From: Pedosphaera parvula Ellin514
Lineage (GTDB): Bacteria; Verrucomicrobiota; Verrucomicrobiia; Limisphaerales; Pedosphaeraceae
NCBI RefSeq assembly: GCF_000172555.1
Contig: NZ_ABOX02000025.1
Location: forward strand, 1 to 64,000
Direction: 5' to 3'
Length of the DNA stretch: 64,000 nucleotides
The notes below the pieces were generated by a model. The model was not told the origin of the DNA. It saw nothing but the letters and a program-made list of their open reading frames with translations, and did not search any database. The position numbers were made by a program, and so were the translations under genes. Shown here piece after piece: positions 1-22,525 of the stretch. Every line of letters begins with the position of its first letter. Positions within the stretch are counted from its first letter, which is position 1.

Positions 1-824
1 CCTTGCGCAGAAGGATCTTCCAGGCGTTGCCCCAGGTTCAGGCCCATCTGCAAGGCGGCTTGTGCCGACGCTTCATCGCCAGCTTGCCGGTAGGAATTTG
101 CAAGCTCACCCAGGTTTCGACCCAATCCCTTTAATTCCGCCAACTGCGGAAGCGGCTGTCCCATCACCGCTGCCGCCTTGGCTTCAGCCTCTGAATAACC
201 CGCAGCGCGATAGGCTTCCTCGGCATTCTGCATTGAATCCATTGAATAATCCTGCCACTTCGATTTTCCGGAAGCAGCCACAAGGTCCTGGACTGCCTGA
301 TCTGTTTGACCGGATTTGAAATGATCGAATGCGGAGACGTAATCTCCCAATGCGTTATCGGGGGCGGATTGTTTTAAATTATCGATCCACTGGCGACGTT
401 CCTCGGGAGAGCCGTTCTGGTAAATGGCGACGAAAGCCACCCGTGGGTCATTAGGAAATTTTTCCCTCGCTTCCTGCAACAACGATGCATCGCCCGTGGC
501 GCGGAAGGCAGCAAGGAGACTTGCCGCACTTCGATGGTTCGCATCGAGGTAAGTTTGGAGCTGGGAAAGGTTCAGCTTTGGCAGTTCCTTCCCGGCACGC
601 AAGAGAGCAACTATATTGGTCGGCTGCAACTCCTCCGGCTGAGATCCTGTAACTGGCGCGGTGACGAGCATCCGCGGCGCGGGCAGGCGTGGAGTGAGAT
701 TGGTTTTTGAAGAAAGCAACGCAACCGGTTCGACTGGCGCTGGTGCAGGTTGCCGCGAATACTTGAAGATGATGAGCCCTGCAGCGGCCATTATAAGTAG
801 TATGGCAACCAACCTTGCTTTCAT
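1..824 (-). CDS. Membrane-anchored TPR-like protein, 3' end cut by window
   Basis: The reading frame is open from an ATG at 824 to the left edge, so the C-terminus is missing; about 274 codons are present. A GTGAGG Shine-Dalgarno-like stretch sits just before the ATG and supports this start. Residues 1-20 (MKARLVAILLIMAAAGLIIF) form a signal anchor, followed by a Pro/Ala-rich linker. The rest is helical and TPR-like, with phrases such as KFPNDPRVAF and ALGDYVSAFDHFKSGQTDQA that resemble stacked two-helix repeats. It lies 36 bases downstream of the 510-aa membrane protein gene on the same strand and is probably the last visible member of that sigma-factor operon. No catalytic motif is seen; a scaffold or protein-interaction role in the envelope is inferred. 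Confidence 0.8.
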   Translation of the reverse strand, partial: MKARLVAILLIMAAAGLIIFKYSRQPAPAPVEPVALLSSKTNLTPRLPAPRMLVTAPVTGSQPEELQPTNIVALLRAGKELPKLNLSQLQTYLDANHRSAASLLAAFRATGDASLLQEAREKFPNDPRVAFVAIYQNGSPEERRQWIDNLKQSAPDNALGDYVSAFDHFKSGQTDQAVQDLVAASGKSKWQDYSMDSMQNAEEAYRAAGYSEAEAKAAAVMGQPLPQLAELKGLGRNLGELANSYRQAGDEASAQAALQMGLNLGQRLEDPSAQ

Positions 825-860
825 GCCTCACTATAACTCGCAAGCCACAGGAAAAAAGAT

Positions 861-2393
861 TTATTTGACCGGATATTGCGGCCAGGCCCAGTCGCCTTCC
901 TTCAGTTCAACACTTGGAGTGGACCCTTTGGTGAATGCGATCGTTCCCCCGTCGTCCATTTGGTTCCAGCCCACTGAATAAAAGATGAAGTGCTGATTAT
1001 CCATGCGCCGATAATGAAGTGGTTCCCCATTGACCACATCATGCGGGATTTTGGCAATGAATTGCGGCTTCAGTTCCTCCAGCGAAGACGGGAATTGATG
1101 GTGTGCCAACCGATACCGCTCCAAGGCACAGGCCAGAGCTGCAAGGTCGACTGCATTCTGCGTGTAGCCAATTTTCATGGTAGCTTTTTCAACCGCTGGA
1201 AAAAGCAGTTTGGCAAAGACCTGGTATGGGAAGGGATACTTTCTCATTTCCAGGTCCAATGCGTTCGTTTGATTCAGTTCAGGATGAACCCGAGTCTGTT
1301 CTGGTGAAAACATTGGCATCGAGACATCCTGGTAGAGGTGATTTACAGTCAGTTGATTTTGGTAAAAGAAGAAACTCGGCACCAGATGGGAAGGCATCGG
1401 TCCAATCCCACCGATGGCTTGCAATTCACCCGCGTTTCGTTTCGTTCTGATCGCGTCCATAAATTCATTTCCTAAAGCTCTTTCGCCCCGGATGGCATCG
1501 GCACCTTCGGAAATCAGATCGTATTTGCTAAACGCCTGTCCCAACTCAGCCAATTGAGCATCGGTCCACTTCTGTTCTCCCAACCCTTCCCAGACAGGCT
1601 GAAGTGCTAACTGCACGATCGCGATACGGACCAATTTGGAGATGAGGAGCGGCTCATCTTTGATGGCATCCGCGAGATATAACGTCATGCGAATATCCGC
1701 GAGAGCGTTGTCGGTGTGCCCCAGCGCCAGTTCGGCAGAAGCCCGGACCGAATATATCACAGCGAACTTTCTAAGAGGCGCAAGATGCGGCAGAAGCGCC
1801 GCAAAATTGTCTTCATAGCGTATTTTGAACCTTGAATTGGGCCGTTTGCTGGCCTCCTGTAACTCGTTTAATACCGACTGGTACTTTTCCACACGCTTCA
1901 GTATCTCTTCCGCCGCCTGGGTACGGGACAACACAGGCTTCTCAGCTTCCGAATTCTTGTTCGTATTGAAACCCGCGGCCAGCTTTGGCAGGTCTGTGAC
2001 ATGCCCCTCCTGCCAGCCCTTGCGCTCCTTGAGCACGGGAGAATCATTGGCAAACTGTTGAACCCGATTCACGGCGTTCGTATCCGCCCAAGCTGATTCA
2101 CCCGGCTTCCGATTAGGATTCAATTCGAACAGTGGTGCGAGAAACGGCGTCTGTGCAAAGTTTTGATCGTCTGGCACCGGTGCTGGAATCAACCCGCCGA
2201 TACCTAGTTTCTCACCTTTAGCCTCCAATTCCGCCTTATAACTTTCCCATGCACGTTTGGCCCGCCAGTTCTCTTCCACGACCAGCAAGGCCACGAGTGT
2301 TACAATCCAGAGCAGCCCAATGATGCCGTAGCGCAACACGCGACGACGAAGGGATTTTTTTGGAGCTGGTGATTCGGCACTGCTGTTTTGCAT
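861..2393 (-). CDS. Membrane-anchored protein of the sigma-factor module, copy A (510 aa)
   Basis: A single hydrophobic segment at about residues 18-40 follows a short basic N-terminus, so most of the protein is expected outside the cytoplasmic membrane. The C-terminal ~90 residues contain LERYRLAHHQFPSSLEELKP, then NGEPLHYRR and FYSVGWNQMDDGG. This pattern recalls the C-terminal part of type II secretion pseudopilins (a helix followed by FP.sLeeL and a small beta sheet ending in GxNxxDDGG). The protein is a clear paralogue of the one at 6470-8041: both share VENWR.K.AWE near the N-terminus, the P-P-V-P-D-[ED]-Q-N-F-A block and an ending WPQYP. It lies downstream of an ECF sigma factor and a small membrane protein. 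Function unknown; similarity to pseudopilin folds is only a visual impression. Confidence 0.85.
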   Translation of the reverse strand: MQNSSAESPAPKKSLRRRVLRYGIIGLLWIVTLVALLVVEENWRAKRAWESYKAELEAKGEKLGIGGLIPAPVPDDQNFAQTPFLAPLFELNPNRKPGESAWADTNAVNRVQQFANDSPVLKERKGWQEGHVTDLPKLAAGFNTNKNSEAEKPVLSRTQAAEEILKRVEKYQSVLNELQEASKRPNSRFKIRYEDNFAALLPHLAPLRKFAVIYSVRASAELALGHTDNALADIRMTLYLADAIKDEPLLISKLVRIAIVQLALQPVWEGLGEQKWTDAQLAELGQAFSKYDLISEGADAIRGERALGNEFMDAIRTKRNAGELQAIGGIGPMPSHLVPSFFFYQNQLTVNHLYQDVSMPMFSPEQTRVHPELNQTNALDLEMRKYPFPYQVFAKLLFPAVEKATMKIGYTQNAVDLAALACALERYRLAHHQFPSSLEELKPQFIAKIPHDVVNGEPLHYRRMDNQHFIFYSVGWNQMDDGGTIAFTKGSTPSVELKEGDWAWPQYPVK

Positions 2394-2399
2394 AAAAAT

Positions 2400-2831
2400 T
2401 TAAACGATGCGGATGTATTGCTTTACCTCGCTACGCGGACGGCGTTCGAGCAACGCGGGATCGACGGGTTGGGGGCTTTCAGGAGAACCAATGAGTTGGG
2501 TAAAGAGTTGCTTCTGCTCCTTCAAAGTGGCGATCACTTCAGGCGAAGGTGCAGGCGCCTCCGCAAGCATGGGCGAGGAGTCTCGCGTGGCGAAATGTAC
2601 TCCCAGAATAATGAGCCAGACTCCCGTCAAGCCAACGAAATGAGGCCGCAACGATTGCAGGAATTCACCGAACCATGAAAGGGTCTGAGGCTTCTGCATT
2701 AAGGCGTCCGGATGGGCAGCGCATTTCGATTTGCCATCGCAAACCTCGGCGAGTGCTTCGGCACGGACTGCATCGAGCTTCGACTCGATTCCTTGATGTT
2801 TTTCAAACAAGACTTCACGGGGGGTTTTCAT
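2400..2831 (-). CDS. Small single-span membrane protein, candidate anti-sigma factor, copy A
   Basis: This 143-aa protein has a soluble N-terminal part (about 75 residues), one transmembrane segment (VGLTGVWLIILGVHFA, about residues 87-102) and a ~40-residue C-terminal tail. Its start codon overlaps the stop of the ECF sigma factor gene by four bases, so the two are translationally coupled. That placement, and the topology of a cytoplasmic head plus one span, fit an anti-sigma factor. The classical zinc anti-sigma HxxxCxxC motif is not present; there is only CDGKSKCAAH at about residues 31-40. The paralogue at 8062-8520 keeps the features around the span (WLI.L.V.F.T.D), the following SPE.I..LKEQ stretch and a PRSE sequence near the C-terminus. 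The anti-sigma role is inferred from context. Confidence 0.75.
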   Translation of the reverse strand: MKTPREVLFEKHQGIESKLDAVRAEALAEVCDGKSKCAAHPDALMQKPQTLSWFGEFLQSLRPHFVGLTGVWLIILGVHFATRDSSPMLAEAPAPSPEVIATLKEQKQLFTQLIGSPESPQPVDPALLERRPRSEVKQYIRIV

Positions 2832-3382
2832 GATGTCCTTTCTTCAATTAATTTACGCAGCGCCTTCTTAGCGTAGTGAATGCGGGACTTCACTGTTCCA
2901 ATCTGTGTGCCGGTGATGCCTGCAATTTCCTCCAATGAAAATTCCTCCACGAAGTGCAGCAACAACACGGAGCGATGCGCAAGTGGCAGTTGATTCATCA
3001 GTGCCATGAATTGTTCCTCCTCCTCCTTGCGAATGAGCAGCGCTTCCGGCCCGTCCTCATAGTACAAATCGTTTTCCTGCTGTTCCTCGATGGGCACCTC
3101 GCTCTCCCGACGTCTTCGCCAGTGTTGAATGCACTTTTGATGTGCGATGCTGAAAAGCCAGGAACCAAACTTCTCGTCCTTTTGCAAACTGCCGATGTGC
3201 CGAACCGCGTTGATAAACGTTTCCTGCACAATGTCCAGGCTGGTTTGTTCATGATGAACGAGTTCAAAAACATAGACGTAAAGAGGCATTTGGTAGCGGC
3301 GGAAAAGGGTGTCCCACGCATCCGGTTTCCCGGCTCTGGCATCCTGAACGGGCAGTTGTTTGTCGTCGGCCACCACTAGCAT
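2828..3382 (-). CDS. ECF RNA polymerase sigma factor, copy A
   Basis: A 184-aa sigma-70 family protein of the extracytoplasmic function type. Region 2 (about residues 20-90) shows DIVQETFINAVRHI and FGSWLFSIAHQKCIQHWRRR, the core-binding and -10 recognition helices. Region 4 (about 125-180) contains QLPLAHRSVLLLHFVEEFSL followed by EEIAGITGTQIGTVKSRIHY, a typical helix-turn-helix for -35 recognition. The acidic linker between the regions (EEQQENDLYYEDG) is unremarkable for the group. It is the first gene of a minus-strand operon with the putative anti-sigma and the 510-aa membrane protein, and is divergent from the 932-aa secreted protein across a 262-base gap, which should hold promoters for both. 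Target genes are unknown; autoregulation of the operon is likely by analogy. Confidence 0.93.
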   Translation of the reverse strand: MLVVADDKQLPVQDARAGKPDAWDTLFRRYQMPLYVYVFELVHHEQTSLDIVQETFINAVRHIGSLQKDEKFGSWLFSIAHQKCIQHWRRRRESEVPIEEQQENDLYYEDGPEALLIRKEEEEQFMALMNQLPLAHRSVLLLHFVEEFSLEEIAGITGTQIGTVKSRIHYAKKALRKLIEERTS

Positions 3383-3644
3383 CTATACAGGGTAGAATGC
3401 CGAGGGCGAGAAAAGGTTCAATTGCTTGAGTAAAATATTGGACGCTTGATCGACGACAATGGTCAGCAAACTTGCAATCGGTTCAGTGGAAGCCCCGTCG
3501 AACCATTCATTTAATCGATTGCCGACACAATTTTATCAATTACCATCCCAGCGGTATCACGGCATAAGCTCGCCGAGTGAAAAATAAATTTTATTCAAAT
3601 CTACAAGGAAAGTCGCCCCTCCTCATCCTCCTTGCGAACACACT

Positions 3645-6443
3645 ATGAAATTGAACCGTCTATCCTTTGTCTGCGTAATTATCAGCATTTCACTGGTGAA
3701 GTCCGCGCTGGCGGAAGACGCTTATTATCGAATGCGCTGGTCGGAGATTCAGTTTACTGAAGGCGAATTGCCAAAAAACGTGCCCTTCTCCATCTCTTAC
3801 CAGGCTTGGAACCAGAGTGAAGCAATGGAACCCTATGCCACGCTCGACGGCCAAGGGGAAGTATTTCTGGCCGGATATGAAACCCTGAACCGTTGGACCA
3901 AGCCGTCGGAGATTTACAACCAAGGATTTCTGAACGTATGCGGCCCGAAAGATCAGCTTATTTCAGGACATCTCTACCTGCCCAAACCGGACCAGCGTGG
4001 CATGGTTTCCCTGGCTTTTAAAGTCACCCCGTCCGCCACAACCTCAGAAGCGAGACAGGAATTTCTCAAAGCAAAGCAAAGTCATTACCATCGATTGCTG
4101 CAACGTGACGTTCCGGGAGCAGCCTGGTTTCGTCATCAGCAACTGGAGGCCAGCAAGGCCCTCAAAGTCAGCCCCGACGCCACTTCCGTCAGACCCACAA
4201 GATTCAATCGACGCTCCGATTTTGAACCAGACGATACCTACGCCCTCTTTACCGGTGGGCGCGCAATTAGTGAGAATCTGCAACTCGACAGACTTTTGAT
4301 CGAGACCAAACCGGGAGAACTCGCAGTGGATTTAACCAACATAACCGGCATCACCGTACAGGAGATGGACTGGAAACCATTGATCAAGGATGTTAAAATT
4401 GAATGCGATCCGCTGGCAGCTTCAATTCCCGCCGACCAGCATGCATTATTCTTTCCTTCTTTTACCGCCATGACACAGGTGATGGATGAGGCGGATGCTC
4501 ATGGAACGCCCTTGCTGCAAATGTTTGAATCACGCTCCATCGACACGGATTCGCGCGGGCGTTATGAGAAACAATTGTGCCTGGGCCTGAATGAGCTGTC
4601 GCGGCGCTTTGGACCGCAGGTAATCCGCAGCATTGCCTTCACTGGATCAGACCCTTATCTACGGACCGGAACGGACATTGGTATAGTTTTTGAGGCCACC
4701 CAACCGGAAATGTTGAAAACCTTTCTGCTGGCGAGACAGGGTGCCGTTGTGCAGGGAGACATCAAGCCTGTCCGGGGCGAAATTCTGGAAGCGAGTTATT
4801 CCGGCGTAGTTTCACCGGACCGGAGCATCTGCTCTTATGTTGCCAGCGTTGGAAATGTTGTTTTCGTCAGCAACTCCCAGTACCAACTCGGTCGGTTGAT
4901 CGAAACAACCAAAGGAAAACGGGCCAGTCTGGGTTCGCAGGATGAGTACCTCTTTTTCCGCAATCGTTATCCCCGCGGAGACAAGAAGGAATCCGCTTTT
5001 CTGGTCTTGAGCGACGCCACCATCCGGCGCTGGTGCAGTCCGCAATGGCGCATTGCCACCGCCCGACGCACCCGTGCCTTGGCGGGCATGACTGAAGCTC
5101 AGGCCACCTCGCTTGATGCATTAGTAAAAGGAACGGTGAAGCCCGGCAAAGTTGAAACAAGTTTGACGACGGCGGATTCGGAAGGCTTGACCGTCAATTC
5201 GCAAGGTGTGCTTTCGAGCACCTATGGGACCCTGTCATTTCAAACTCCGATCGCTGAGATGCCAATGACCAGGGTTACACAAGCAGAAGCGGACGCCTAT
5301 AAGCGCTGGCGAGATACCTACCAGCAGAACTGGAGCCAATATTTTGACCCTATTGCCGTCCGCTTATCGGTATCTCCCGAGCGCATTGGCGCCGAGGTGA
5401 CGGTGATGCCATTGATCACCCGCAGTGACTACGCTGAATTGGTACGGCTGAGCAGCGGAGCCAGTATTCCGCCAGGAGCAGGAGATCCTCATTCAGGGAC
5501 GCTGGCTCATCTGGTAATGGCGCTTAACCCACAATCCGAACCAGTCGTGCGTGCCAGCAGTTTTGTTGGGACGATGGCCCCCAACATAAAGGCAAATCCT
5601 CTGGGTTGGCTGGGCCATGCTGTGTCTTTGTATGCGGACGAGGATCCCTTCTGGGAAGAACTTGCCCAGTCGGAAAAGCCCGAGGACTTTTTGGAGCATG
5701 AATATCATCAATTGCCTGTAGCGCTGCATTGTGACGTGAAGAATCCACTGGGGCTGGCTGCTTTTCTGACCGCCTTGCACGCCTACGCAGATCAATCGGC
5801 ACCCGGAATGACTCTCTGGGAAAACCGCGAGTATAACGGACAGACGTATGTCAAAATCACCCCTTCAAAGTCGATGCGCGAGGAAAACGAATTGGACAAA
5901 CTGGCTGTTTATTATGCAGTCACGCCAAAGTCGTTGGTGCTGACTTTGAACGAATCGGTGTTAAAACGAGCTGTTGACCGACAAGCAGCACGCAGTTCAA
6001 CCAATGCAGTTGCCACGGCATCTGAAGCAGCGATTGCACCTTGGTTGGGCACCAATTTATGCCTGCAGGTGCAGCAACATTTCCTGAAGACACTCGAGGG
6101 CGCAGCCAGGGAGGAATATCAGATCAAAATGCAGAATCTTGCCTGGAGCAACCTGCCCATCCTTAACGAATGGAAGCATCGGTTTCCCAATGAAGATCCA
6201 GTGAAGCTCCATGAACAATTCTGGCAGACGAAGTTAATCTGCCCGGCCGGAGGTTCGTATGTGTGGAACGAAAAATGGCAGACGATGGAATCGACCGTTT
6301 ATGGCCATCCGGGCGAACCAAAAAGGGGACCCTCTGAAATTGGCCCATTCGCGGCTATCACCAGCGCAAATCTGGGATTGAGCTTCGAGACAAATGGACT
6401 TTCCGCCAAGGCAGTTCTTAACCGAACAACAGGCAAGCGTTAA
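3645..6443 (+). CDS. Secreted protein of unknown function, 932 aa
   Basis: The N-terminus is a good Sec signal peptide, hydrophobic over about residues 6-23 and ending KSALAEDA. The remainder is soluble, rich in charged and aromatic residues, with no recognised motif, Cys pair pattern, repeat or membrane segment. Phrases such as IAFTGSDPYLRTGTDIGIVF and YYAVTPKSLVLTLNESVLKR recall secreted DUF3352-like proteins of planctomycetes and verrucomicrobia, but that assignment is only an impression. The gene sits alone on the plus strand between two divergently or convergently arranged sigma-factor modules and shares the 262-base divergent region with sigma factor A. It could be a regulon member or the protein monitored by the modules; this is inference. 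No terminator is evident before the convergent gene ending at 6470. Confidence 0.85.
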   Translation: MKLNRLSFVCVIISISLVKSALAEDAYYRMRWSEIQFTEGELPKNVPFSISYQAWNQSEAMEPYATLDGQGEVFLAGYETLNRWTKPSEIYNQGFLNVCGPKDQLISGHLYLPKPDQRGMVSLAFKVTPSATTSEARQEFLKAKQSHYHRLLQRDVPGAAWFRHQQLEASKALKVSPDATSVRPTRFNRRSDFEPDDTYALFTGGRAISENLQLDRLLIETKPGELAVDLTNITGITVQEMDWKPLIKDVKIECDPLAASIPADQHALFFPSFTAMTQVMDEADAHGTPLLQMFESRSIDTDSRGRYEKQLCLGLNELSRRFGPQVIRSIAFTGSDPYLRTGTDIGIVFEATQPEMLKTFLLARQGAVVQGDIKPVRGEILEASYSGVVSPDRSICSYVASVGNVVFVSNSQYQLGRLIETTKGKRASLGSQDEYLFFRNRYPRGDKKESAFLVLSDATIRRWCSPQWRIATARRTRALAGMTEAQATSLDALVKGTVKPGKVETSLTTADSEGLTVNSQGVLSSTYGTLSFQTPIAEMPMTRVTQAEADAYKRWRDTYQQNWSQYFDPIAVRLSVSPERIGAEVTVMPLITRSDYAELVRLSSGASIPPGAGDPHSGTLAHLVMALNPQSEPVVRASSFVGTMAPNIKANPLGWLGHAVSLYADEDPFWEELAQSEKPEDFLEHEYHQLPVALHCDVKNPLGLAAFLTALHAYADQSAPGMTLWENREYNGQTYVKITPSKSMREENELDKLAVYYAVTPKSLVLTLNESVLKRAVDRQAARSSTNAVATASEAAIAPWLGTNLCLQVQQHFLKTLEGAAREEYQIKMQNLAWSNLPILNEWKHRFPNEDPVKLHEQFWQTKLICPAGGSYVWNEKWQTMESTVYGHPGEPKRGPSEIGPFAAITSANLGLSFETNGLSAKAVLNRTTGKR

Positions 6444-6469
6444 CGGCATTCATTGATTGTTGGTACAAC

Positions 6470-8041
6470 TCATTGACTGGGATACTGTGGCCAAACCCAA
6501 TCTCCCTGGGTAGGATCGATAGACTTGCCATCCTTGCTGTTAATTGTTTTGCCGCCATCGTCTTTTTCGTTCCAGCCAACGGAGTAGAGCTCAAATTGGC
6601 GGTCATTCGTGCGCTGATATTTGAAGGGTTCTCCATTCACCGTCTCACGGGGAATATTCCCTATGAACTGCGGCACCAGGAGTTCAAGCGAATCGGGGAG
6701 TTCGCCACGAGCGAGTCGATACCGCTCCAACGCACCGGCGAGCACGGCGAGATCAACGTCAGTTTGACCCTTGGCGATTTTGGCGGAAAGCATATCAACC
6801 GTCGGAATCAGCAAAACCGTAAATATCCTGTGATGCCAAAGCGTGGAAAAGGGGTTTGCCCCTAAATCAGCAACATATTTTGAAGAATTGTTCAATGCCT
6901 GTGGATTGACCCTTTTGCTTTCCGGGGTAATGAACGGTAAAATCTTCTCGTTAAAAGTGCGAAGGTAAGAGAGCTGCTCCTGGTAAAACCACCCCTTCGG
7001 ACTCCATTTGTAAAGGACCCCAATGGCTTTTGGACTATTCTGGTCCAAAGTAACGGGGAGTTCCGAGCCATGATTGCGCATGTACTCGAACAACTGATTG
7101 CCGAATGCCGCAGCTTCTGCGTGCAATGTCCGGTCAAAGTGCTTTATCAGAGACTGCTTTTCCAACCCGTCCTGAAAACTTTTAAGCTGATTATCGGACC
7201 ATTGATGGGCGGCCAATCCCTCCCAGACGACCTGCAACGCATTTTTTGTGATGATGTTCCGAACGAGCACCGAGATTACCGTCGGCTCATTTTCGATGGA
7301 GTCTGACAGATGCAAAAGCAGGTTAACGTCTTCGGCGGCGGCATCCGTTTTACCGGAAGCGAGTTCTGCCTCGGCACGCATTTTCAGCACCTGACTCGTG
7401 TGATTGAGAACTCCTAGATGCGGAAGCAGGATGGCTGCAGGATTCTCTTCGTCATATCGCAGGTTGAACCGGGAGTAAGGCCGGCGACTCGCCAAACGCA
7501 CCTCCTCCAGCACCGGTCCGTATTTCTCAAGGTATTTTAAAATCTCGGAAGCCTCCTTTGCGTTGGCCGTTGAATTCAAACCAGCGGAGGTCTTTGAATT
7601 GGCTTTCGAATCCGAAGGCGCATCCTGAAGGCTGGTCCTTTTAGCTTCACTCCATTTGACGTATTCATGATCCAGATCTGTTCCAAACTGGGTCGCCCGG
7701 TTGTAAGCATTCGTATCTTTCCAGCGTGATTGCCCAGGCTGCAACGGCTCCGGATTAAAATCATACAAAGCAGCTAAAAACGGAGTCATGGCAAAATTCT
7801 GTTCGTCCGGCACGGGCGGCGGTATGAATTGATGCCAATCCATGTTGATTCCCCTGGCGGTCAGCTCGCGTTTGTATTGTTCCCAGGCGTGTTTGCCCCG
7901 CCAGTTTTCCACCGCATAGAATAAAGCGACCAGGGTTGCCAAACAGGCGAGACAAAAGAGGTAACGCCGAATCATTCTCCAACTAAAGAGACAACGGAGA
8001 AATCCACGTTTTTCAATACTGGTTGGCTGATGGTCTGTCAT
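6470..8041 (-). CDS. Membrane-anchored protein of the sigma-factor module, copy B (523 aa)
   Basis: Paralogue of the 510-aa protein at 861-2393. I start it at the ATG at 8041 because AAGGA lies 8 bases upstream; an in-frame TTG at 8065 would overlap the previous stop. A transmembrane anchor (YLFCLACLATLVALFYAVENW) lies at about residues 27-47, followed by a long periplasmic part. The C-terminal block has LERYRLARGELPDSLELLVP, NGEPFKYQR and LYSVGWNEKDDGG, as in the paralogue and reminiscent of pseudopilin C-termini. The middle region carries a Ser/Lys/Asn-rich stretch (SKANSKTSAGLNSTANAKE) that is less conserved. It is third in an operon with an ECF sigma factor and a small membrane protein. 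Function unknown. Confidence 0.85.
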   Translation of the reverse strand: MTDHQPTSIEKRGFLRCLFSWRMIRRYLFCLACLATLVALFYAVENWRGKHAWEQYKRELTARGINMDWHQFIPPPVPDEQNFAMTPFLAALYDFNPEPLQPGQSRWKDTNAYNRATQFGTDLDHEYVKWSEAKRTSLQDAPSDSKANSKTSAGLNSTANAKEASEILKYLEKYGPVLEEVRLASRRPYSRFNLRYDEENPAAILLPHLGVLNHTSQVLKMRAEAELASGKTDAAAEDVNLLLHLSDSIENEPTVISVLVRNIITKNALQVVWEGLAAHQWSDNQLKSFQDGLEKQSLIKHFDRTLHAEAAAFGNQLFEYMRNHGSELPVTLDQNSPKAIGVLYKWSPKGWFYQEQLSYLRTFNEKILPFITPESKRVNPQALNNSSKYVADLGANPFSTLWHHRIFTVLLIPTVDMLSAKIAKGQTDVDLAVLAGALERYRLARGELPDSLELLVPQFIGNIPRETVNGEPFKYQRTNDRQFELYSVGWNEKDDGGKTINSKDGKSIDPTQGDWVWPQYPSQ

Positions 8042-8061
8042 AAGTAGTTCCTTGGTAATTC

Positions 8062-8520
8062 TCAAACTACAATCACCGTGATACGACGCTCGCTGCGAGG
8101 CTTTGGCGGAACAGACTTCGGCAGGTCAACCGGCTCGATATCATGACGATCAACAAGTTCGGCCAGTTCACGCCGCTGTTCCTTGAGTGCCATGATGATT
8201 TCTGGTGAAGGTGTTGCGACCTTTGCGACGACTTCTGTCCGGTCTGCAGTTGTGAAATTAACGGCCAGGACGATGAGCCAAATTGCAGCCAACCCTGCCC
8301 AGGCTTGCGGACATGGCCAAAGAATGGCTGAGAGTTGATGGTTGAGAGTTGAGAGAAAGGAGGGAGACTTGCTCGTGTCGTGTTGCTTTGGAGCAGCGCT
8401 CTTTGCTGCATCAAGAATCTCATTGCGCCACTCGCCGGGAATGGCTCGCATCGACTGTTGCTGCAGTTGTTTTTCGAAATCGTCTGGTTTCATAGCGTTG
8501 AGATCATTTGATTTCTTCAT
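8062..8520 (-). CDS. Small single-span membrane protein, candidate anti-sigma factor, copy B
   Basis: This 152-aa protein parallels the one at 2400-2831: soluble N-terminal head, one span (WAGLAAIWLIVLAVNFTTAD, about residues 74-93), then SPEIIMALKEQ and a C-terminus with PRSERR. Its start overlaps the end of the sigma factor gene by 17 bases. Just before the span it contains the residues LSTLNHQLSAIL, encoded by a low-complexity stretch (8326-8355) built from TTGAGAGT-type direct repeats; the paralogue lacks an equivalent. No zinc-binding anti-sigma motif is present. The anti-sigma function is inferred from gene order, coupling and topology. Confidence 0.72.
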   Translation of the reverse strand: MKKSNDLNAMKPDDFEKQLQQQSMRAIPGEWRNEILDAAKSAAPKQHDTSKSPSFLSTLNHQLSAILWPCPQAWAGLAAIWLIVLAVNFTTADRTEVVAKVATPSPEIIMALKEQRRELAELVDRHDIEPVDLPKSVPPKPRSERRITVIVV

Positions 8521-9016
8521 AGAGAGGACGCAGTTGCTCGCGCAGTTTGTCTAAACCGTAGCGATATCGGCTGGCCGCAGTGTTAGGTGAAAGGTCCAGG
8601 GCTTTCGCGATTTCCTCGAAGGTCAATCCTTCCCACAATTTGAGGTGAACAACCGCACGTTGTTCCGCAGGCAGTTCGCCCAATGCTTTACTCAGCGCAA
8701 CGCGAAAAGCGGCTTCATCGCGGTCGGTAGCAGGCAAGAAAACCGAATTTATCTCCAAAGCAAGCTGATCGTAATTCTTTTCGCGAGTTCCACGGCGACG
8801 AACAAGATCGATGGCAAGGTTGTGCGCCAGATGCAGAAGGAAAGCGCGTTCATCACGAACCCCTTTGAGCAATTCAGGGCGTCGTGCCAGTTTTATAAAG
8901 AGTTCTTGCAGGAGATCGCGTGTATCCGCCTCGTTGTGGGTAAAATTGAGCAGGAATGCAAAAAGCGCCTGGGCGTGTTCATCATAGAGGCGCTCAAGAT
9001 TGCTTTCTGCCGGCAT
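8504..9016 (-). CDS. ECF RNA polymerase sigma factor, copy B
   Basis: About 170 aa from the ATG at 9016 (an in-frame TTG at 9040 is a less likely start). Region 2 shows LYDEHAQALFAFLLNFTHNE followed by ADTRDLLQELFIKLARRPEL and AFLLHLAHNLAIDLVRRR. Region 4 shows LGELPAEQRAVVHLKLWEGL then TFEEIAKALDLSPNTAASRY, a clear helix-turn-helix. It belongs to the same broad class as the sigma factor at 2828-3382 but is not close in sequence, so the two probably read different promoters. It heads the second module and is separated by 55 bases from the oxidoreductase gene upstream on the same strand, so read-through from that gene is possible. Confidence 0.92.
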   Translation of the reverse strand: MPAESNLERLYDEHAQALFAFLLNFTHNEADTRDLLQELFIKLARRPELLKGVRDERAFLLHLAHNLAIDLVRRRGTREKNYDQLALEINSVFLPATDRDEAAFRVALSKALGELPAEQRAVVHLKLWEGLTFEEIAKALDLSPNTAASRYRYGLDKLREQLRPLYEEIK

Positions 9017-9071
9017 GTTCAAAGAGAAGACGCTGATCAACCGGCAAATTGTCTAAAATTCAAAAAAAAAA

Positions 9072-10127
9072 TTAGCTCAACCGAACTTCCCTGCCTGTCG
9101 CCGCCGAAGTGTAAATGGCATCCAGAACTTGTTGCACTTTCAAGGATTCTTCAACAGTAACCGCAGGCTTTTTGTCGTCTAACACACAATTCACGAAGTG
9201 TTGTATGCGATCTTCCGGCAGGGGGACCTTGGGTGCTGAGAGCTGAATGGTTTCGTATCCCAGCGGACCATTGCGGAAGAGCTTGGCGGGATAGAGTGAC
9301 AGACCGGCCGAGGTGCCCAGGAGGTCCACTCCATAATCCCGCCCTTCCGTCGGTTGATGGGCGGCCCAACTGACTTCGAAGTTGACGGTGCGGCCGCTTT
9401 TCATCTTCAGCAAAGCCACGCTGTAGTCGTCCACATCGAAAGGTTTTTTGGGATCGATTTCACTTTTGCCCCAGGTGCCGTCGCCCAAGCCCCGATTGCC
9501 GAACTTGGCAAAGGTCTGCCCCGAGACACTGGCGACGTCGAACTCGCCAAGCAAGTGCAGACAAGCATCCAACATGTGGACGCCAATATCCAGAGTCGCG
9601 CCACCACCGGACAATTTCTTTTGAGTAAACCAGGAGCCGGTGCGGGGAATGCCGCTACGCCGCAGCCAGAAGCAACGAGCATGATAAACTTCACCGAGAT
9701 CACCGCGTTGCACCGCCATTTTGGCCAGTTGCGTTTGGCGATTGAACCGAAAATTCTGTCCCACCATGATGGTGCGCCGCATTTTAGCGGCAGCATCCAC
9801 AATCCTGGCTGCCTCTTTGGCGTTCAATGCCATCGGCTTTTCAAGGAACACATGTTTACGCGCCTTAATCGCCTCCAGTGCAACCGGGGCATGCAGGTGA
9901 TTCGGCAACGCAATCGTAACGGCATCTATGTCCACCTGCTCCAGCAGTTCACGATAATCCGAGTATATCCTGGGGACACGATAGAGTTCGCCCGCTTCGC
10001 GTGCACGCGCAGGATTGCTCTCGGCGATGGCCACTGCGCCACCGCGGTGGCAATGCGAAAAGCTCTTCAGATGTTCCAAACCGATGGCGCCAGTTCCGAT
10101 CACGGCGCAGCGAAGTCTCTCAGCCAT
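9072..10127 (-). CDS. Gfo/Idh/MocA family NAD(P)-dependent oxidoreductase
   Basis: A 351-aa protein with an N-terminal Rossmann fold beginning RCAVIGTGAIGLEHLKSF and the family signature HVFLEKPMAL (about residues 92-101), whose Lys is the usual catalytic residue. The C-terminal alpha/beta substrate domain contains GGGATLDIGVHMLDACLHLL, giving the conserved Asp/His pair. Family members oxidise sugars, inositols or related polyols, or hydrolyse glycosides by an NAD-dependent route; the substrate cannot be told from sequence. No signal peptide is seen, unlike many verrucomicrobial secreted members, so it is probably cytoplasmic. It is not obviously in operon with sugar genes. Confidence 0.9.
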   Translation of the reverse strand: MAERLRCAVIGTGAIGLEHLKSFSHCHRGGAVAIAESNPARAREAGELYRVPRIYSDYRELLEQVDIDAVTIALPNHLHAPVALEAIKARKHVFLEKPMALNAKEAARIVDAAAKMRRTIMVGQNFRFNRQTQLAKMAVQRGDLGEVYHARCFWLRRSGIPRTGSWFTQKKLSGGGATLDIGVHMLDACLHLLGEFDVASVSGQTFAKFGNRGLGDGTWGKSEIDPKKPFDVDDYSVALLKMKSGRTVNFEVSWAAHQPTEGRDYGVDLLGTSAGLSLYPAKLFRNGPLGYETIQLSAPKVPLPEDRIQHFVNCVLDDKKPAVTVEESLKVQQVLDAIYTSAATGREVRLS

Positions 10128-10280
10128 AAGTGTGCGCTGTTGATGATTATTGTTGGTGCTACTCTTGGACGAGGGCTTTTTAAGGCTTTTTACTGCCAGA
10201 GGTCAATGGTCTTCTCCTAAAAACGCGCTTAGGAATTGGCGCTTGCGGAACTTTCCCCTTATCTCTAGGAAAAGAGCCGC

Positions 10281-11408
10281 GTGGTTACGGTTTTAGCCAT
10301 AATGGCCCTCTTAAGTGTGTTACTCGCTTGCTGGCAATGGGTTGCAGCATGGCGATTCCCTTTGCACACGCGCTTGCCGAACCCTTCCTTTCAACCGCCG
10401 GTGACCTTGCTGAAGCCGCTGAAAGGGTGCGATACAAAAACGGTGGAATGCCTGAAAAGCTGGCTACAACAGGATTACAAAGGCCAAGTTCAAATTTTAT
10501 TCGGAGTTGCTGCCGCAGAAGACCCTGCGTGCGAAGCAGTTAGGAAATTGATTAGCGATCATCCGGGAAGCTACATCCAACTCGTTATCTGCAAAGAGGC
10601 TCTGGGTTTTAACGCTAAAGTATCCACTCTCATCCAACTATCTCGACTCGCCAGGCACGAAATTATTAGCGTCAGTGACGCAGATGTGTTGGTTTCCACC
10701 GATTTTCTGAAAAATGCGGTGGCTCCTTTGGAAAATGCGAACACGGGCCTGGTGAACTGCTTTTATCGTCTCGCGAATCCTTCCAATCTGGCGATGCATT
10801 GGGAGGCGATTGCCATCAATGCCGATTTCTGGAGTCAGGTGTTGCAGGGCCAAAATCTGCAGCCACTCGATTTTGCTTTGGGAGCCGTGATGACCACACG
10901 TCGAGCGCAGCTAAAGAGTATAGGGGGTTTCGAGGCTTTGGCTGATTATTTGGCGGATGATTTTCAACTTGGCAACCGAATCGCCAAGACCGGAAAAGAA
11001 ATAGTGATCAGTCCCATCGTCGTTGATTGCCTGTCGCATCCCATGGGCTGGAAGGAAGTCTGGGCACATCAACTCCGCTGGGCACGAACCATTCGAGTCA
11101 GTAAGCCCGCACCCTATGCGATGAGCATCATCAGCAATCCCACTTTGTGGCCTCTAGCCTGGTACATCATGCAACCAACACACCGAGTGCTGCTTTTTCT
11201 CGCCATCTCCCTGCTGGCCCGCATTCTTATGGCGGAAACGCTTCAGAGCAGATTTAACAAGGATGGCCAGCGAAATCACTGTTGGCTGGCACCCATCAAA
11301 GATATCCTTCAGTTTGGCATTTGGATGCAGGCATTTTTTGGCAATAGCATTCTTTGGCGCGGACAGAGGTATCACCTCCAAAAAGACGGTACACTACAGA
11401 AGGTGTAG
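10281..11408 (+). CDS. hpnI: HpnI-like membrane glycosyltransferase (ceramide-glucosyltransferase type)
   Basis: A 375-aa GT2/GT21-type enzyme starting at GTG 10281 with AGGAAAAGAG upstream. An N-terminal span (about residues 1-23) is followed by VTLLKPLKGCD, then the nucleotide-sugar metal site SVSDADVLVSTDF (D-x-D), the acceptor region with DDFQLGNRIA, and the late motif HQLRWARTIR (the Q..RW signature of processive and GT21 enzymes). C-terminal hydrophobic segments lie around residues 290-320. In hopanoid producers HpnI transfers N-acetylglucosamine to bacteriohopanetetrol. Assignment to HpnI rather than to a ceramide glucosyltransferase rests on the presence of hpnH and hpnJ about 20 kb away; HpnK is not seen here. 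Confidence 0.78.
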   Translation: MVTVLAIMALLSVLLACWQWVAAWRFPLHTRLPNPSFQPPVTLLKPLKGCDTKTVECLKSWLQQDYKGQVQILFGVAAAEDPACEAVRKLISDHPGSYIQLVICKEALGFNAKVSTLIQLSRLARHEIISVSDADVLVSTDFLKNAVAPLENANTGLVNCFYRLANPSNLAMHWEAIAINADFWSQVLQGQNLQPLDFALGAVMTTRRAQLKSIGGFEALADYLADDFQLGNRIAKTGKEIVISPIVVDCLSHPMGWKEVWAHQLRWARTIRVSKPAPYAMSIISNPTLWPLAWYIMQPTHRVLLFLAISLLARILMAETLQSRFNKDGQRNHCWLAPIKDILQFGIWMQAFFGNSILWRGQRYHLQKDGTLQKV

Positions 11409-11585
11409 ATGCCGAAGGAGCTTCACAAGTATTATTACGCGTCCGTACAGTTGGGCGTAAAATCCAATTTTTCACAAGGCTACAGTGCTATTTATATTGC
11501 TTTTCTTAGAGCGTTAACCTAGAAGATGGATTCAATTTTTACATGAAAGCCAGGGTAAATTTCCCATAAAACCTTTAAACAAAGT

Positions 11586-14500
11586 ATGAGCCCAACCAAA
11601 AGCCTAAATACCAAGGGAGTCGTGCAAGTGCTGGCAATCACGCTGGCATTAGCAGGACTGCAACCATCCGCGAAAGCCGTCCCGTACGCTTCCGGTATTA
11701 TCAACAACTCAGGAACCATCTCATTCATCTTGAATGAGGATGCCGATAATGTGAAGGTTATTTTCAACAACGCTACCAGCACCAACGATCTGGGAGCGCT
11801 GAGCAAAGGCACACAGTCCTTCAACTTGGGTGCTGCCACGAATTTTCAAATTGTGGTCAAAAAAGTGAGCACCCAGGGATTCGTCACCGCTAATGGAACT
11901 AACGCCCCTGTGTTCCAAACCAGCAAGGATACAAATGCGCTGCTAAACTTTTCAACACCTCGAGGACTTGCGATTAATCAGAATCCAAGCAGTCCCTACT
12001 TCGGCCGGGTTTACGTGGCTAACTCTTCCACCACCACCACCACCTCCAACAATGTTTCCCGAGTAACAGGTGACGGGATTTACATGTTGAATGCGGACCA
12101 AACGGATGCTCTGGGCTTGGGAGATACAGCCAGCACGGGCGGACTGGATTTCACTAGTGGCGCCCTGGCAGCACCTTGGAAATTAATGGTGGGACAGGAT
12201 GATACTCTTTATGTCGCCGACTGGAGTGATGCCACAGGTAACCTGTATTACACCGACCCGAATGTGATTTCAGGGGGACCAGTGCTGAGACCGCTCTCTG
12301 CGCTGGGAACAGCCGCCGTCCCAGTCGGCACAGCGAATACCCATGGCAGCATCGGAGCAACCTTCGTCGAAGGCTCTCTTGCGGCGGGGAATATGAAGGT
12401 ATACACAATCGACGAAGATCTCCAGTCGGACAAAACAACCACGACCAAAAACCAGGAACAGAGTCTCTGGCGTTACGACGTGTTAGGCGGTCCACTGCCC
12501 TATGACTCTGATGCTACACGCGTTTGGACCCCGACCTCCAAGGAAGGCATCACCTTTACCGGTACAATCTATGTGGACATGGACAGAGGCGCAGATGGCA
12601 AATTTTATACTTCCACATACCGCATCAACGGACTTGAAGGCGGCGTTATTGTTCATGATTCAACTGGGAGCACCACCCTTTTTAACTCCTATTTTGTGAG
12701 CACAAACCTCCTGGCAAGCACTTCGGCCGCCGACCTGCTCAGACAAACCATGGCAGTGGCCGTATCAGCCGACCAGAAATTTTTGGCAGTTGTACGCGAT
12801 GACAGCAGAACATGGATTCTGCCGTTAACCAACGGGGTGCCGGACCTCTCCAAACGTCTGTGGTTAAATTCATTCAGCTCCATCCTTTATGCGCGCGCCT
12901 TGAAGTTCGATGCAGCTGGGAACCTTTACATTCTCAGCGGCTGCACCGGGAGTAGTCCCTCATCAAGCACGGGCCCAGGCACGGGTGCACAAGTCTTGCG
13001 CATTTTCTCACCTGGCGGGACCACGATCGCAACCACGGGTAATGATATCACCGGCACAAACGGGACCTTCTCCGTTTCAAGAATCGATCCCGACATCGCC
13101 ATCCAGCCGCAAAATGTTACTGTCAATGCAGGCGTTAATGCGACCTTTTCAGTCAACGCTACCGGCGTCGGTACACTCAAATACCAATGGACATTTAATG
13201 GAGCAAACATAGCCGGAGCAACAGCCAGCACCTTTACCCGCACAGCGGCTCAGAATAATGCAGCTACTGTGGGCAATTACTCGGTGATCATTACCAACGC
13301 TGCTGGAACAACCTCCATCACCAGCTCGGTGGTATCTCTGACGGTGGTCGATACGGCACCTCTTATTACATTGCAACCTGTTGGACTTACCAACGCTGCC
13401 GGCACCCCTACCGCTCCCAAGCTCACGGTCACCGCCACTGGAACAACGAACATCACTTATCAATGGCGCTTGAACGGAACCAACCTTTCTGGAGCAACTA
13501 CCACAGCCCTGACGCTCAGCAATGCACAGGCCGAGCAATCCGGACCTTACACGGTTGTATTGACGAACCCGCTTGGCACCACAACCAGCTCAGTGGCCAA
13601 CGTGCTCATTACCAATACGCCTCCCGTATTTAATCTCCAACCCAAGAGTCAGACGGTGAATGCTGGTGTCAACGTCACATTTACAGCGTCACTTACCCAG
13701 GCTTCATCCAATAACCTTGCCTTCCAATGGACCCTGAATGGGACGGACATCGCCGGCGCCACTGGCACCAGCTATGTCCTCAATGACGTGCAAGTCATAA
13801 GCTCAGGCACCTATACCGTGACAGTTACCAACCTCTTCGGCCCCATCACTTCCACAAATGCAGTGCTGACGGTGAATGACACGGCACCAATCCTATCGAC
13901 CCAACCCAAGAGCCAGAGCACCGGTGCTGGCTCCAGTGTTACGTTTACGGTGACCTCGTCCGCCGGAACCGACCCCCGCGTCTACCAGTGGCTATATGAA
14001 GGGGTCAGTATTACTGACGCAACCAACAGTTCCTTGACATTGACGAACATCCAGTTCAGCGATGCCGGCAACTACAGTGTCTATGTCGCTAATCCGATCA
14101 ACTTTACATTCAGCACCAATGCCCTTCTCACGGTGACCAATCGGGCTCCGATCATCACGGCGGCACCAGTGGGTGTCTCCACAAACATTGGTAGCAGTGG
14201 AAGCTTCACCATCTATGCCAATGGCGCGACCAATCTGACTTACCAGTGGTCGTTCGCCGGCAATGACCTCGCTGGAGCGACGGATTCCACGCTCAATCTG
14301 AGCAATGTCCAGCTCGCAGATGCTGGCTTCTACACTGTGGTTGTGGGCAGTGGCGCTGGAACTTACTTCACCACCAATTCGGCCGCGCAATTGGCGGTAA
14401 CCATTCCCGCAACCCCGGGCACAGGTACTGGTTTGCGCGGTGATTACTACACCATCCAGGCACAAACCTTCACCAACGCGCCGACGTTGACCCGGATCGA

Positions 14501-15065
14501 TACCAATATCGACTTCAACTTCGGCACCGGTTCACCTGACCCGAGCATCTCTGTGGATCGCTTCACTGTCCGCTGGACGGGCAAAGTGCAGCCGCTCTAC
14601 AGCCAGGATTACACCTTCTACACCCGTTCGGATGATGGGGCGAGATTGTGGATCAATGGACAACTGGTGGTGAACCACTGGGCCAGCCAGTCCGTCACCG
14701 AATGGGCAAGTGCTCCAGTAACACTGACAGCGGGCCAGAAGTATGACCTACTGATGGAATACTTCGAAGGCACGAGCACGGCGGAAGTCCATCTAAGCTG
14801 GTCCAGCACCAGTCAGTTAAAGTCAGTCATTCCGATGACTCAGCTGTATCCCGCAGCCACTGGTTCGGCTCTGACTCCGACATTAAGCTCCAGTTTCAAC
14901 GGCACCAACTCGGTGTTTAACTGGACTGGATCATACACCTTACAGACTGCCATCAGCGTTGCTGGCCCCTGGACCAACGCAGCGGCGCTGGGTGCTGGGC
15001 CCTTTACCTACACCAACTCGCAATCGGCTGACACCCAGCGGTTTTTCCGTCTGAAAGCCAATTAA
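11586..15065 (+). CDS. Large secreted Ig-like/PA14 domain protein, 1159 aa
   Basis: Signal peptide at about residues 1-31 (hydrophobic run VVQVLAITLALAGL, cleavage near AKA). Residues ~120-490 read as a propeller-like region with strands such as GRVYVANSS, TLYVADWSD and GNLYILSG. Five Ig-like repeats follow from about residues 505 to 940; each opens with a QP...VNAG-type stretch, has a central YQW and ends with G.Y.V.VTN. A PA14 domain (about 945-1090; RGDYYT, SDDGARLWINGQLV, HLSW) suggests carbohydrate binding. The last ~70 residues contain an S...W.N segment and end FFRLKAN, like the ends of two other local proteins. It is probably an adhesin or glycan-binding surface protein; no enzymatic centre is visible. 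Expression is monocistronic, closed by a strong terminator. Confidence 0.88.
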   Translation: MSPTKSLNTKGVVQVLAITLALAGLQPSAKAVPYASGIINNSGTISFILNEDADNVKVIFNNATSTNDLGALSKGTQSFNLGAATNFQIVVKKVSTQGFVTANGTNAPVFQTSKDTNALLNFSTPRGLAINQNPSSPYFGRVYVANSSTTTTTSNNVSRVTGDGIYMLNADQTDALGLGDTASTGGLDFTSGALAAPWKLMVGQDDTLYVADWSDATGNLYYTDPNVISGGPVLRPLSALGTAAVPVGTANTHGSIGATFVEGSLAAGNMKVYTIDEDLQSDKTTTTKNQEQSLWRYDVLGGPLPYDSDATRVWTPTSKEGITFTGTIYVDMDRGADGKFYTSTYRINGLEGGVIVHDSTGSTTLFNSYFVSTNLLASTSAADLLRQTMAVAVSADQKFLAVVRDDSRTWILPLTNGVPDLSKRLWLNSFSSILYARALKFDAAGNLYILSGCTGSSPSSSTGPGTGAQVLRIFSPGGTTIATTGNDITGTNGTFSVSRIDPDIAIQPQNVTVNAGVNATFSVNATGVGTLKYQWTFNGANIAGATASTFTRTAAQNNAATVGNYSVIITNAAGTTSITSSVVSLTVVDTAPLITLQPVGLTNAAGTPTAPKLTVTATGTTNITYQWRLNGTNLSGATTTALTLSNAQAEQSGPYTVVLTNPLGTTTSSVANVLITNTPPVFNLQPKSQTVNAGVNVTFTASLTQASSNNLAFQWTLNGTDIAGATGTSYVLNDVQVISSGTYTVTVTNLFGPITSTNAVLTVNDTAPILSTQPKSQSTGAGSSVTFTVTSSAGTDPRVYQWLYEGVSITDATNSSLTLTNIQFSDAGNYSVYVANPINFTFSTNALLTVTNRAPIITAAPVGVSTNIGSSGSFTIYANGATNLTYQWSFAGNDLAGATDSTLNLSNVQLADAGFYTVVVGSGAGTYFTTNSAAQLAVTIPATPGTGTGLRGDYYTIQAQTFTNAPTLTRIDTNIDFNFGTGSPDPSISVDRFTVRWTGKVQPLYSQDYTFYTRSDDGARLWINGQLVVNHWASQSVTEWASAPVTLTAGQKYDLLMEYFEGTSTAEVHLSWSSTSQLKSVIPMTQLYPAATGSALTPTLSSSFNGTNSVFNWTGSYTLQTAISVAGPWTNAAALGAGPFTYTNSQSADTQRFFRLKAN

Positions 15066-15102
15066 TCCAAAGCACCTTCAAAGGTGCAGTGCTTAAATCT
15101 AA

Positions 15103-15132
15103 GGACGCCGGCAACGGCGTCCTTTTTCTTTT
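15103..15132 (+). terminator. Rho-independent terminator of the Ig/PA14 gene
   Basis: GGACGCCG (15103-15110), a GCAA loop of the GNRA type, and CGGCGTCC (15115-15122) form a perfect 8-bp stem, followed by TTTTTCTTTT. It lies 38 bases past the stop codon. A weaker hairpin, GCACCTT/AAGGTGC at 15072-15087, precedes it. Confidence 0.9.
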
Positions 15133-15527
15133 AAATAATATGGCGATTCATTACAAAATGGCATAAGTAACTTAGGAAGCTTCAAACGTGCGACCACGAT
15201 TGCCTCTCGCGAACCTCCATTGGAACAGGCCGAAATCCGGCTCTCAGTTTACCAGCCAGTTTCGATGAACCAGCAGGAGAACCGCGCAGAACCGCTCAAA
15301 GTCTGACGCTAATTATTACACCCATCAGCGTCCCAGTTGTAATCCAACCTTACATGCAAGAATTACACAAATATGTAGTAGTAATTAAGGCGAGTAAGAG
15401 GGTTTACTGTTATGAGTATTGGGAACCGGAGATGTAATAAGTCGGCTAAGACTGGTGTTTACGATTTATTAAAGAAAATCGGAAGACAAGCTGGAAGCCG
15501 CAAAACAAAAAAATTTAACCTGTTACT
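15133..15527. other. Intergenic region without a supported gene
   Basis: This stretch holds no convincing coding frame. The region just before 15528 is AT-rich and contains AATTAC and GTAATT as a short inverted pair around 15360-15385; it probably carries the promoter of the small basic protein. No clear -35/-10 pair can be fixed by eye. Confidence 0.5.
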
Positions 15528-15914
15528 ATGTCAAATTCAATTGCCACTTTGTCCTTGGAACAGCTCAAACGAGCTGTCCATGTGCGGGAGCAGATCGAAA
15601 CGCTGACTCTCGAGCTAAACCAGATTCTGGGTTTGTCTCCGCTAACATACACTCGCGGTGGAAACCGTGGGAGTCAGAATGGCCTGCATGGGCTGAATGG
15701 CAGTAAAAGAAATCTCAGCCCAGCTGCCCGGGAAAGAATTGCAGCCGCCCAACGTATCCGCTGGGCCAAGTACAACGCCGCCAAGCCCCAAAAGGCAGTC
15801 GCGGCCGGAAAGAACCGTCTCTCTGCCGCCGGAAGGGCGAAGGTCGCAGCGGCAGTCACTGCGCGTTGGGCCAGGTTTCGCGCCATGAAAGCGAAATCAA
15901 ACCAGCCCAATTGA
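15528..15914 (+). CDS. Small basic protein with helical RWAK repeats
   Basis: A 128-aa, strongly basic protein. The N-terminal third contains a helix (LEQLKRAVHVREQIETLTLE) that could be a short coiled coil. It is followed by a Gly/Asn-rich linker and two similar basic helical units, SPAARERIAAAQRIRWAKYN and SAAGRAKVAAAVTARWARFR, about 50 residues apart. The pattern A..R...A...R.RWA suggests nucleic-acid binding, like small histone-H1-like or DNA-compacting proteins, but no named domain is recognised. It is monocistronic and closed by its own terminator. The role is inferred only from composition and repeat pattern. Confidence 0.75.
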   Translation: MSNSIATLSLEQLKRAVHVREQIETLTLELNQILGLSPLTYTRGGNRGSQNGLHGLNGSKRNLSPAARERIAAAQRIRWAKYNAAKPQKAVAAGKNRLSAAGRAKVAAAVTARWARFRAMKAKSNQPN

Positions 15915-15939
15915 TTATTTAGTTTATTAGACTCGTGGT

Positions 15940-15977
15940 ATCGGCCAGTTCCTAAAACGAACTGGCCGATTTTACTT
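15940..15977 (+). terminator. Rho-independent terminator after the small basic protein
   Basis: ATCGGCCAGTTC (15940-15951) and GAACTGGCCGAT (15959-15970) form a perfect 12-bp stem with a 7-base loop, followed by TTTACTT. The stem is symmetric and could also stop transcripts from the minus-strand remnant next to it. Confidence 0.85.
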
Positions 15978-15988
15978 CGCAGGCCTTG

Positions 15989-16440: not shown

Positions 16441-16548
16441 CCAAAGGTGGATTTACCTGGTCAAGACTCGAGGATTATCAACGATGCAGGCTGGAACACG
16501 CTAAATCTTTCGCCTTTGCTTGCGCCACCAAACTGATACAAATCCGGC

Positions 16549-18836: not shown

Positions 18837-18849
18837 GTATTATTTCGTA

Positions 18850-19452: not shown

Positions 19453-19489
19453 TGGATGAATAGAAACATAGAAACGTACGGGATTTTGA

Positions 19490-22517: not shown

Positions 22518-22525
22518 AACGTCAT

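Follow-up and report, generated by a model that had tools for sequence, protein, structure and literature searches.

The first 64,000 nucleotides (nt) of contig NZ_ABOX02000025.1 of Pedosphaera parvula Ellin514 (forward-strand positions 1..64,000, referred to here as the window) contain two three-gene operons, each starting with the gene of an extracytoplasmic function (ECF) sigma factor. The source genome (7.41 Mb, 102 contigs, this one being C25; G, C and L numbers are our labels for genomes, contigs and loci) contains 63 matches to sigma-70 region 2. Both operons lie on the minus strand (861-3382 and 6470-9016) and show the same gene order, as an earlier note on this DNA had described: the sigma gene, a gene for a small single-span protein and a gene for a membrane-anchored partner of about 510 amino acids (aa), which we call LARGE. 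In module 1, a type A sigma factor of 184 aa (2828..3382; Pfam Sigma70_r2 E 1.3e-14, r4_2 E 1.4e-13) is followed by a small protein of 143 aa (2400..2831) and LARGE of 510 aa (861..2393). The small gene overlaps the sigma gene by 4 bp, which agrees with the overlapping start pointed out earlier. In module 2, a type B sigma factor of 170 aa (8504..9016; Sigma70_r2 E 1.7e-10, r4_2 E 5.8e-12) is followed by a small protein of 152 aa, or 143 aa if it starts at 8493 (8062..8520), and by a LARGE paralogue in a 531-aa frame (6470..8065) for which the ATG start at 8041 is more likely.

Both window sigma factors matched PF04542, PF08281 and TIGR02937 above the cut-offs and are therefore ECF sigma factors. 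They were the only trio proteins of the window with a Pfam family; the small proteins and LARGE had none above cut-off. The HxxxCxxC motif and Pfam domains, including zf-HC2, were searched for in both small proteins and neither was found, just as the earlier note had reported the lack of a classical zinc anti-sigma motif. Sequence identity between the two modules amounts to 42% for LARGE (E 6e-125), 32% for the small protein (E 4e-17) and 28% for the sigma factor. The description of the small and large proteins as pairwise paralogues accompanied by less similar sigma factors was thus correct.

The trio is not confined to this contig. The co-occurrence of the three genes across genomes, on which the earlier note had staked its proposal beforehand, was found. 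Of 293 genomes from the order, 153 encode the small-protein family according to a profile search, compared with only 4 among 288 genomes sampled elsewhere in the phylum. About 60 neighbourhoods of small genes, holding 70 such genes, were fetched and annotated. A LARGE gene came next after the small gene in all 70 cases and an ECF sigma gene preceded it in 64. Among the six remaining genes, two are located at contig ends (L091, L121), one follows a broken sigma gene (L114) and three have no assigned sigma gene ahead of them (L117, L118, L119). An orthologous type A trio is present in a Verrucomicrobiales metagenome genome (L020), whose sigma factor is 63% identical to that of module 1, and tandem modules are common (L059, L063, L072, L082, L083, L090). 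Since the trio recurs in essentially every neighbourhood examined, chance is ruled out for its arrangement. The suggestion of an undescribed envelope-facing system has held up in that the trio recurs throughout the order and its small and LARGE proteins belong to no named family. No paper on such a system was found in the open-access literature, subscription papers and published ECF group tables lying outside that search. The three genes apparently form an architecture that spans the order and has not been described before, in which an ordinary ECF sigma core is combined with exchangeable heads.

The small proteins consist of a constant and a variable part. The constant part comprises the transmembrane (TM) segment and a periplasmic tail (W.GLAAVW...EQ..LLAEL...PRSER), whereas the cytosolic head occurs in four kinds. 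The type A head (consensus MKTPREILLxRHxxAxxKLDxIR), which is found in module 1 together with one TM segment and the PRSE tail, and the type B head (DDFExxLxRQPLRxxPxEWRxEIL) of module 2 are zinc-free. The heads of types C and D are classical zinc anti-sigma domains with HxxxCxxC, which match Pfam zf-HC2 and the NCBIfam families for anti-sigma factors and ChrR (type C) or RsrA (type D); the signatures of zinc ASDI that are missing from the window small proteins are therefore present in their sister types. Single-linkage BLAST clustering of the heads merged all types via the membrane-proximal segment, and motif classes were compared with sigma clusters instead. Head type and independently clustered sigma group agreed in every one of the 64 trios, of which 30 belong to type B, 27 to type A (two placed by eye), 6 to zinc type C and 1 to zinc type D. 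Among the first 50 trios, mean sigma identity was 0.63-0.68 within types and 0.19-0.29 between types, and the ranges did not overlap. The single type D trio (L113:5647-6839, minus strand) combines an RsrA-like zinc head with a separate sigma lineage, and more head types may exist. Some apparent fusions were discarded: a 380-aa sigma-small fusion at L114, where the DNA shows a disrupted sigma region 4 and thus a broken gene or an assembly error, and overlong small frames at L086, L081, L111 and L115, which are alternative-frame read-throughs across the sigma gene.

Because the head changes exactly with the adjacent sigma factor and the sister proteins are recognised anti-sigma factors, the head is best read as the sigma-binding domain. 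The small proteins also show the general features of membrane-bound anti-sigma factors: the gene adjoins the sigma gene, there is one TM segment and the head varies with the sigma factor. A net positive charge N-terminal to the TM segment, seen in both the small protein and LARGE, fits an N-in topology. In the AlphaFold2 model of the type B small protein, which is of low overall confidence, helices 3-12 and 20-33 and an amphipathic helix 46-58 precede the TM helix (62-92), which is followed by a periplasmic helix (97-115). At that confidence, the first two helices may fit the head of class II anti-sigma factors (CnrY/NepR), which wraps around the sigma factor with about two helices; class I anti-sigma factors (ASDI) are defined by a cytosolic domain of four helices that binds sigma2 and sigma4. 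A profile search of the PDB with this protein gave no sequence match, CnrY included. On genomic grounds, that is, from family recurrence and the match between head and sigma factor, it appears close to certain that the small proteins of both modules are anti-sigma factors. The earlier idea of a new kind of anti-sigma factor needs to be modified: since the same tail bears zinc heads in sister loci, the A and B heads are alternative domains on a shared chassis, and the missing zinc motif does not imply an entirely new kind.

The history of LARGE differs from that of the sigma factors. A tree of 64 LARGE proteins requires 18 changes of sigma type, and strongly supported branches alone force at least 7 changes for type A and at least 6 for type B. 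The types are therefore not two old clades; instead, sigma factor and head have repeatedly been exchanged in front of LARGE lineages. When trios of different types are compared in pairs, the distances between their periplasmic tails correlate with those between their LARGE proteins (Spearman 0.21, p 0.002 by within-type permutation), but sigma and LARGE distances do not correlate (r -0.02). Judged from these trees and distances, the sigma factor and the head form an exchangeable cassette that is combined with a constant pair of tail and presumed LARGE sensor. In the tree, LARGE of module 2 (type B) groups among the type A LARGEs of its own family. Cassette exchange accounts for the window sigma factors being less alike than their small and LARGE partners.

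The sigma types differ in the signature upstream of their genes, which has a fixed spacing and is almost exclusive to trio operons. The type A signature TTGAACCTTT-N11-GCATTC was found upstream of all 27 type A sigma genes, the start codon mostly following 12 nt later. This is also the distance in module 1, where the putative promoter P1 lies at 3395..3421 (minus strand). The type B signature, TAGACAAA-N14-GCGTC, precedes all 30 type B sigma genes if a relaxed form is allowed; in module 2 the conserved putative P1 reads TAGACAA-N15-GCGTC (9027..9055, minus strand). The type C signature TTTGAACCTTT...GGGGATT stands before 6 of 6 type C sigma genes. The spacing between signature and start codon suggests that the mRNAs are nearly leaderless. 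A search of 146 genomes gave 32 exact copies of the A motif and none of its reversed control; the only exact copy in the source genome is the one before the module 1 sigma gene. Thirty A-motif loci were examined: 23 precede type A sigma genes identified by profile, two precede a pseudopilin-like gene, and the other five are at contig ends or have frames that our script did not assign, two of them (L161, L167) being the trio loci L095 and L086. The B motif occurs 52 times in the same genomes, compared with 3 times for its control, and all 35 copies examined are located at P1 or at the internal element P2 described below. At five loci (L147, L165, L190, L193, L194), intact sigma-type promoters are followed by short or disrupted sigma frames, which suggests decayed modules or assembly breaks.

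The putative internal promoter P2 is a second B motif, located immediately ahead of the small gene in the 3'-terminal part of the type B sigma gene (8525..8553, minus strand, in module 2). It is written in the codons for GLDKLRExLRP and was found in 29 of 30 type B operons, whereas no such motif was found in the 27 type A sigma genes. Within P2, leucine is encoded by TTA or CTA in 25 of 26 cases, compared with 3% in the remainder of those genes (p about 2e-37), arginine is encoded by CGT in 28 of 28 cases compared with 11%, and where isoleucine or valine replaces the leucine, the codon is ATA or GTA. This bias to rare codons demonstrates that the constraint acts on the DNA and not on the protein. 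In type C, a P2-like element is located 32-38 nt before the sigma end in 6 of 6 operons, although it is weaker in some. P2 would raise the amounts of anti-sigma factor and LARGE without sigma factor, and would therefore provide negative feedback.

The AlphaFold2 model of LARGE, built from 45 aligned members, reached a predicted local distance difference test score of 90.4. A long N-terminal helix (15-58), which includes the TM segment, leads into an alpha-helical body, and a long helix (392-431) with a small sheet forms the C-terminus. The positive charge ahead of the TM segment places the bulk of the protein in the periplasm. The C-terminal ~100 residues of both window proteins gave a sub-threshold match to GspG-type pseudopilins: TIGR01710 scored 20.3 bits (cut-off 88.85), 26 of the 45 members matched below cut-off, and the profile match to GspG 2kep had E 8e-4. 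The YS.G, DGG and next D positions of LARGE are near-invariant, and the corresponding positions of GspG bind calcium. A prepilin cleavage site (GFxxxE) was not found at the LARGE N-terminus, and LARGE is not a member of the GspG or type IV pilin-like families. The pseudopilin-like outer partner postulated by the earlier note thus has a counterpart in the C-terminal domain. We are inclined to view LARGE as a sensor or co-inhibitor.

A further trace of pseudopilins concerns possible targets. In G124 and G103, a pseudopilin-like gene is preceded by the exact A motif, and its orthologue in the source genome by a copy with one mismatch. The proteins, which have a prepilin-type N-terminus, are 69% and 48% identical to that of the source genome. 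The motif thus stands before orthologous genes in three genomes of one family (L137, at G000:C46:58933, L159 and L158), and no conserved neighbourhood of this gene was seen. As the three genomes are related and such proteins are numerous in these bacteria, we treat this as a lead; a link of the module to pseudopilins is suggestive only, and that the state of a pseudopilin or of type II secretion is the signal is a guess.

From these patterns, we infer the following order of events. The head of the small protein would hold the cognate ECF sigma factor inactive at the inner membrane, while the TM segment and the periplasmic tail would be a constant chassis working with LARGE, anchored by its N-terminal helix, mostly periplasmic and with a GspG-pseudopilin-like end. 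A periplasmic change sensed by LARGE would alter the anti-sigma factor so that the sigma factor is released. The freed sigma factor would transcribe its own operon from P1 and, in types B and C, also the small and LARGE genes alone from P2, which would restore inhibition. Evolution would exchange cassettes of sigma factor and head, and the tail and the LARGE sensor would stay. Taken as a whole, the explanation of each trio as a self-regulating envelope-sensing module with exchangeable sigma factor and head is probably correct.

Several results weigh against this explanation. A comparison of the whole LARGE fold with the PDB returned no structural relative (best E 0.38). Very few promoter targets were found beyond the trio operons. 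The Mantel correlation between tail and LARGE is modest, and species history is only partly controlled. The model of the type B small protein is weak (predicted template modelling score 0.25). Furthermore, the source genome has LARGE paralogues with no sigma gene nearby, on contigs C6, C45, C47, C53 and C66, and LARGE therefore has a life outside the module. These paralogues (loci L021, L022, L023, L024 and L025) include tandem pairs in C47 and C6. On C82 (L026:1949-3285), a pair of sigma factor and zinc anti-sigma factor directly follows a gene weakly matching LARGE, in reversed order.

The sigma-free paralogues can also be accommodated if LARGE is an output of the system, a pseudopilin-like component of the envelope or of secretion, with sigma and anti-sigma factors answering to another factor acting on the tail, such as a protease. 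The strict promoter motifs have hardly any targets other than their own operon, which makes LARGE the main product, and the A motif before pseudopilin-like orthologues in three related genomes, with one mismatch in the source genome, points in the same direction. However, P2 would produce LARGE together with the anti-sigma factor and without the sigma factor, as expected for an inhibitory or sensing partner, and the correlation of tail and LARGE distances across sigma types suggests contact. We consider this role unlikely, although it is by far the most serious competitor of a sensing LARGE. The small protein could also be conceived as cargo, an accessory membrane protein co-expressed with LARGE, the sigma factor being controlled by transcription alone. 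The type A and B heads, in which no anti-sigma domain is recognisable, would permit this, but sisters with the same TM segment and tail bear zinc anti-sigma domains, the head changes whenever the sigma factor changes, and transcription from P2 would add to the sigma-dependent expression of the small gene, as one would expect for an anti-sigma factor; this makes cargo very improbable. Equally hard to believe, or slightly more so, is a simple tandem duplication of the window modules with faster divergence of the sigma factors. Identical gene order, paralogous small and LARGE proteins and the frequency of tandem modules are what it predicts, but throughout the order, each of the two sigma types is conserved (identity 0.63-0.68 within types and 0.24 between them), which indicates old separate lineages, and the tree places the window type B LARGE with type A LARGEs of the same family, a placement that speaks for cassette exchange or conversion.

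Zinc-free anti-sigma factors are hard to find because their heads are too divergent for profile searches, and finding them is an open problem. The constant tail reveals at least two zinc-free heads and assigns each of them to a particular sigma type. The head swaps that occurred in evolution amount to a natural experiment on sigma specificity and on head-independent transmembrane signalling, the promoter signatures are strict enough for direct testing, and P2 illustrates clearly how regulation can constrain synonymous codons. Tentatively, the trio can be pictured as an undescribed order-wide ECF architecture in which zinc and zinc-free heads share one sensor pair, a pseudopilin-derived domain monitors the pseudopilus or secretion, and feedback is written in codons.

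The genes next to the modules do not seem to belong to the system. A 932-aa secreted protein without a family match is encoded between the two modules (3645-6443, plus strand); elsewhere, such modules are often directly tandem. The earlier note linked this protein to the modules and proposed looking for a promoter motif common to its gene and the sigma genes. Type-specific motifs do precede the sigma genes, but no A or B motif was found upstream of the 932-aa gene; outside the module, A scores in the window reach no more than 7.4, compared with 42.8. Relatives occur in 3 of 115 other genomes: one, from G039 of the same order (L126), is 52% identical, and those from the two remaining genomes are distant. 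Being rare and lacking an A or B promoter, the protein was rejected as a module member. An incomplete gene for a TPR-like anchored protein (3-824, minus strand) is cut because the window starts at the contig end. It was thought to extend module 1, but homologues were found in 14 of 40 genomes, counting the source genome, mostly on contigs other than those of the trios, and it was rejected as a conserved member. One homologue, in G103 (L084:5076-6218), adjoins a type A trio and ends ~85 nt before the type A promoter. The TPR-like homologues weakly match the alpha-helical part of LARGE. The protein is at most loosely linked to the trio system.

Parts of the trio resemble well-characterised proteins. 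LARGE shares with the major pseudopilin GspG the C-terminal helix-plus-sheet region and the matching YS.G and DGG positions but differs in lacking the prepilin cleavage motif, in scoring far below cut-off and in joining this region to a long alpha-helical periplasmic part. The type C and D heads are zinc ASDI, and the order of sigma and anti-sigma genes is also that of membrane-bound ASDI systems of the ChrR/RsrA/RslA/RskA type. Domains associated with ASDI are typically conserved within a group and differ between groups (PMC7406223), whereas here one sensor tail is common to unrelated heads, and the window A and B heads show neither a zinc motif nor a Pfam match. An experimental precedent for an internal promoter like the putative P2 is SigH-RshA of Corynebacterium glutamicum, in which the sigH-rshA operon is transcribed from SigH-independent promoters and a sigma-dependent promoter within the sigma gene drives the anti-sigma gene alone (PMC3489674). 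In contrast, P1 and P2 of the trio share one motif, and P2 is present in almost all type B operons and would also drive LARGE.

The closest parallel in layout is CnrYXH of Cupriavidus metallidurans, which consists of the ECF sigma factor CnrH, the short single-span anti-sigma factor CnrY and the membrane-anchored periplasmic sensor CnrX. Both systems combine an ECF sigma factor, a small single-span anti-sigma factor (predicted in the trio) with a short head and an anchored periplasmic partner. CnrY is the reference for class II anti-sigma factors (PMC7406223). A comparison of LARGE with the PDB gave no CnrX by sequence profile or fold, and LARGE is not a CnrX-homologous sensor; it has ~510 aa and a GspG-like domain, and the heads of the trio, unlike CnrY, are exchangeable and include zinc types. 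Without membership by sequence, the trio is, by analogy, a system that works like CnrYXH in its layout.

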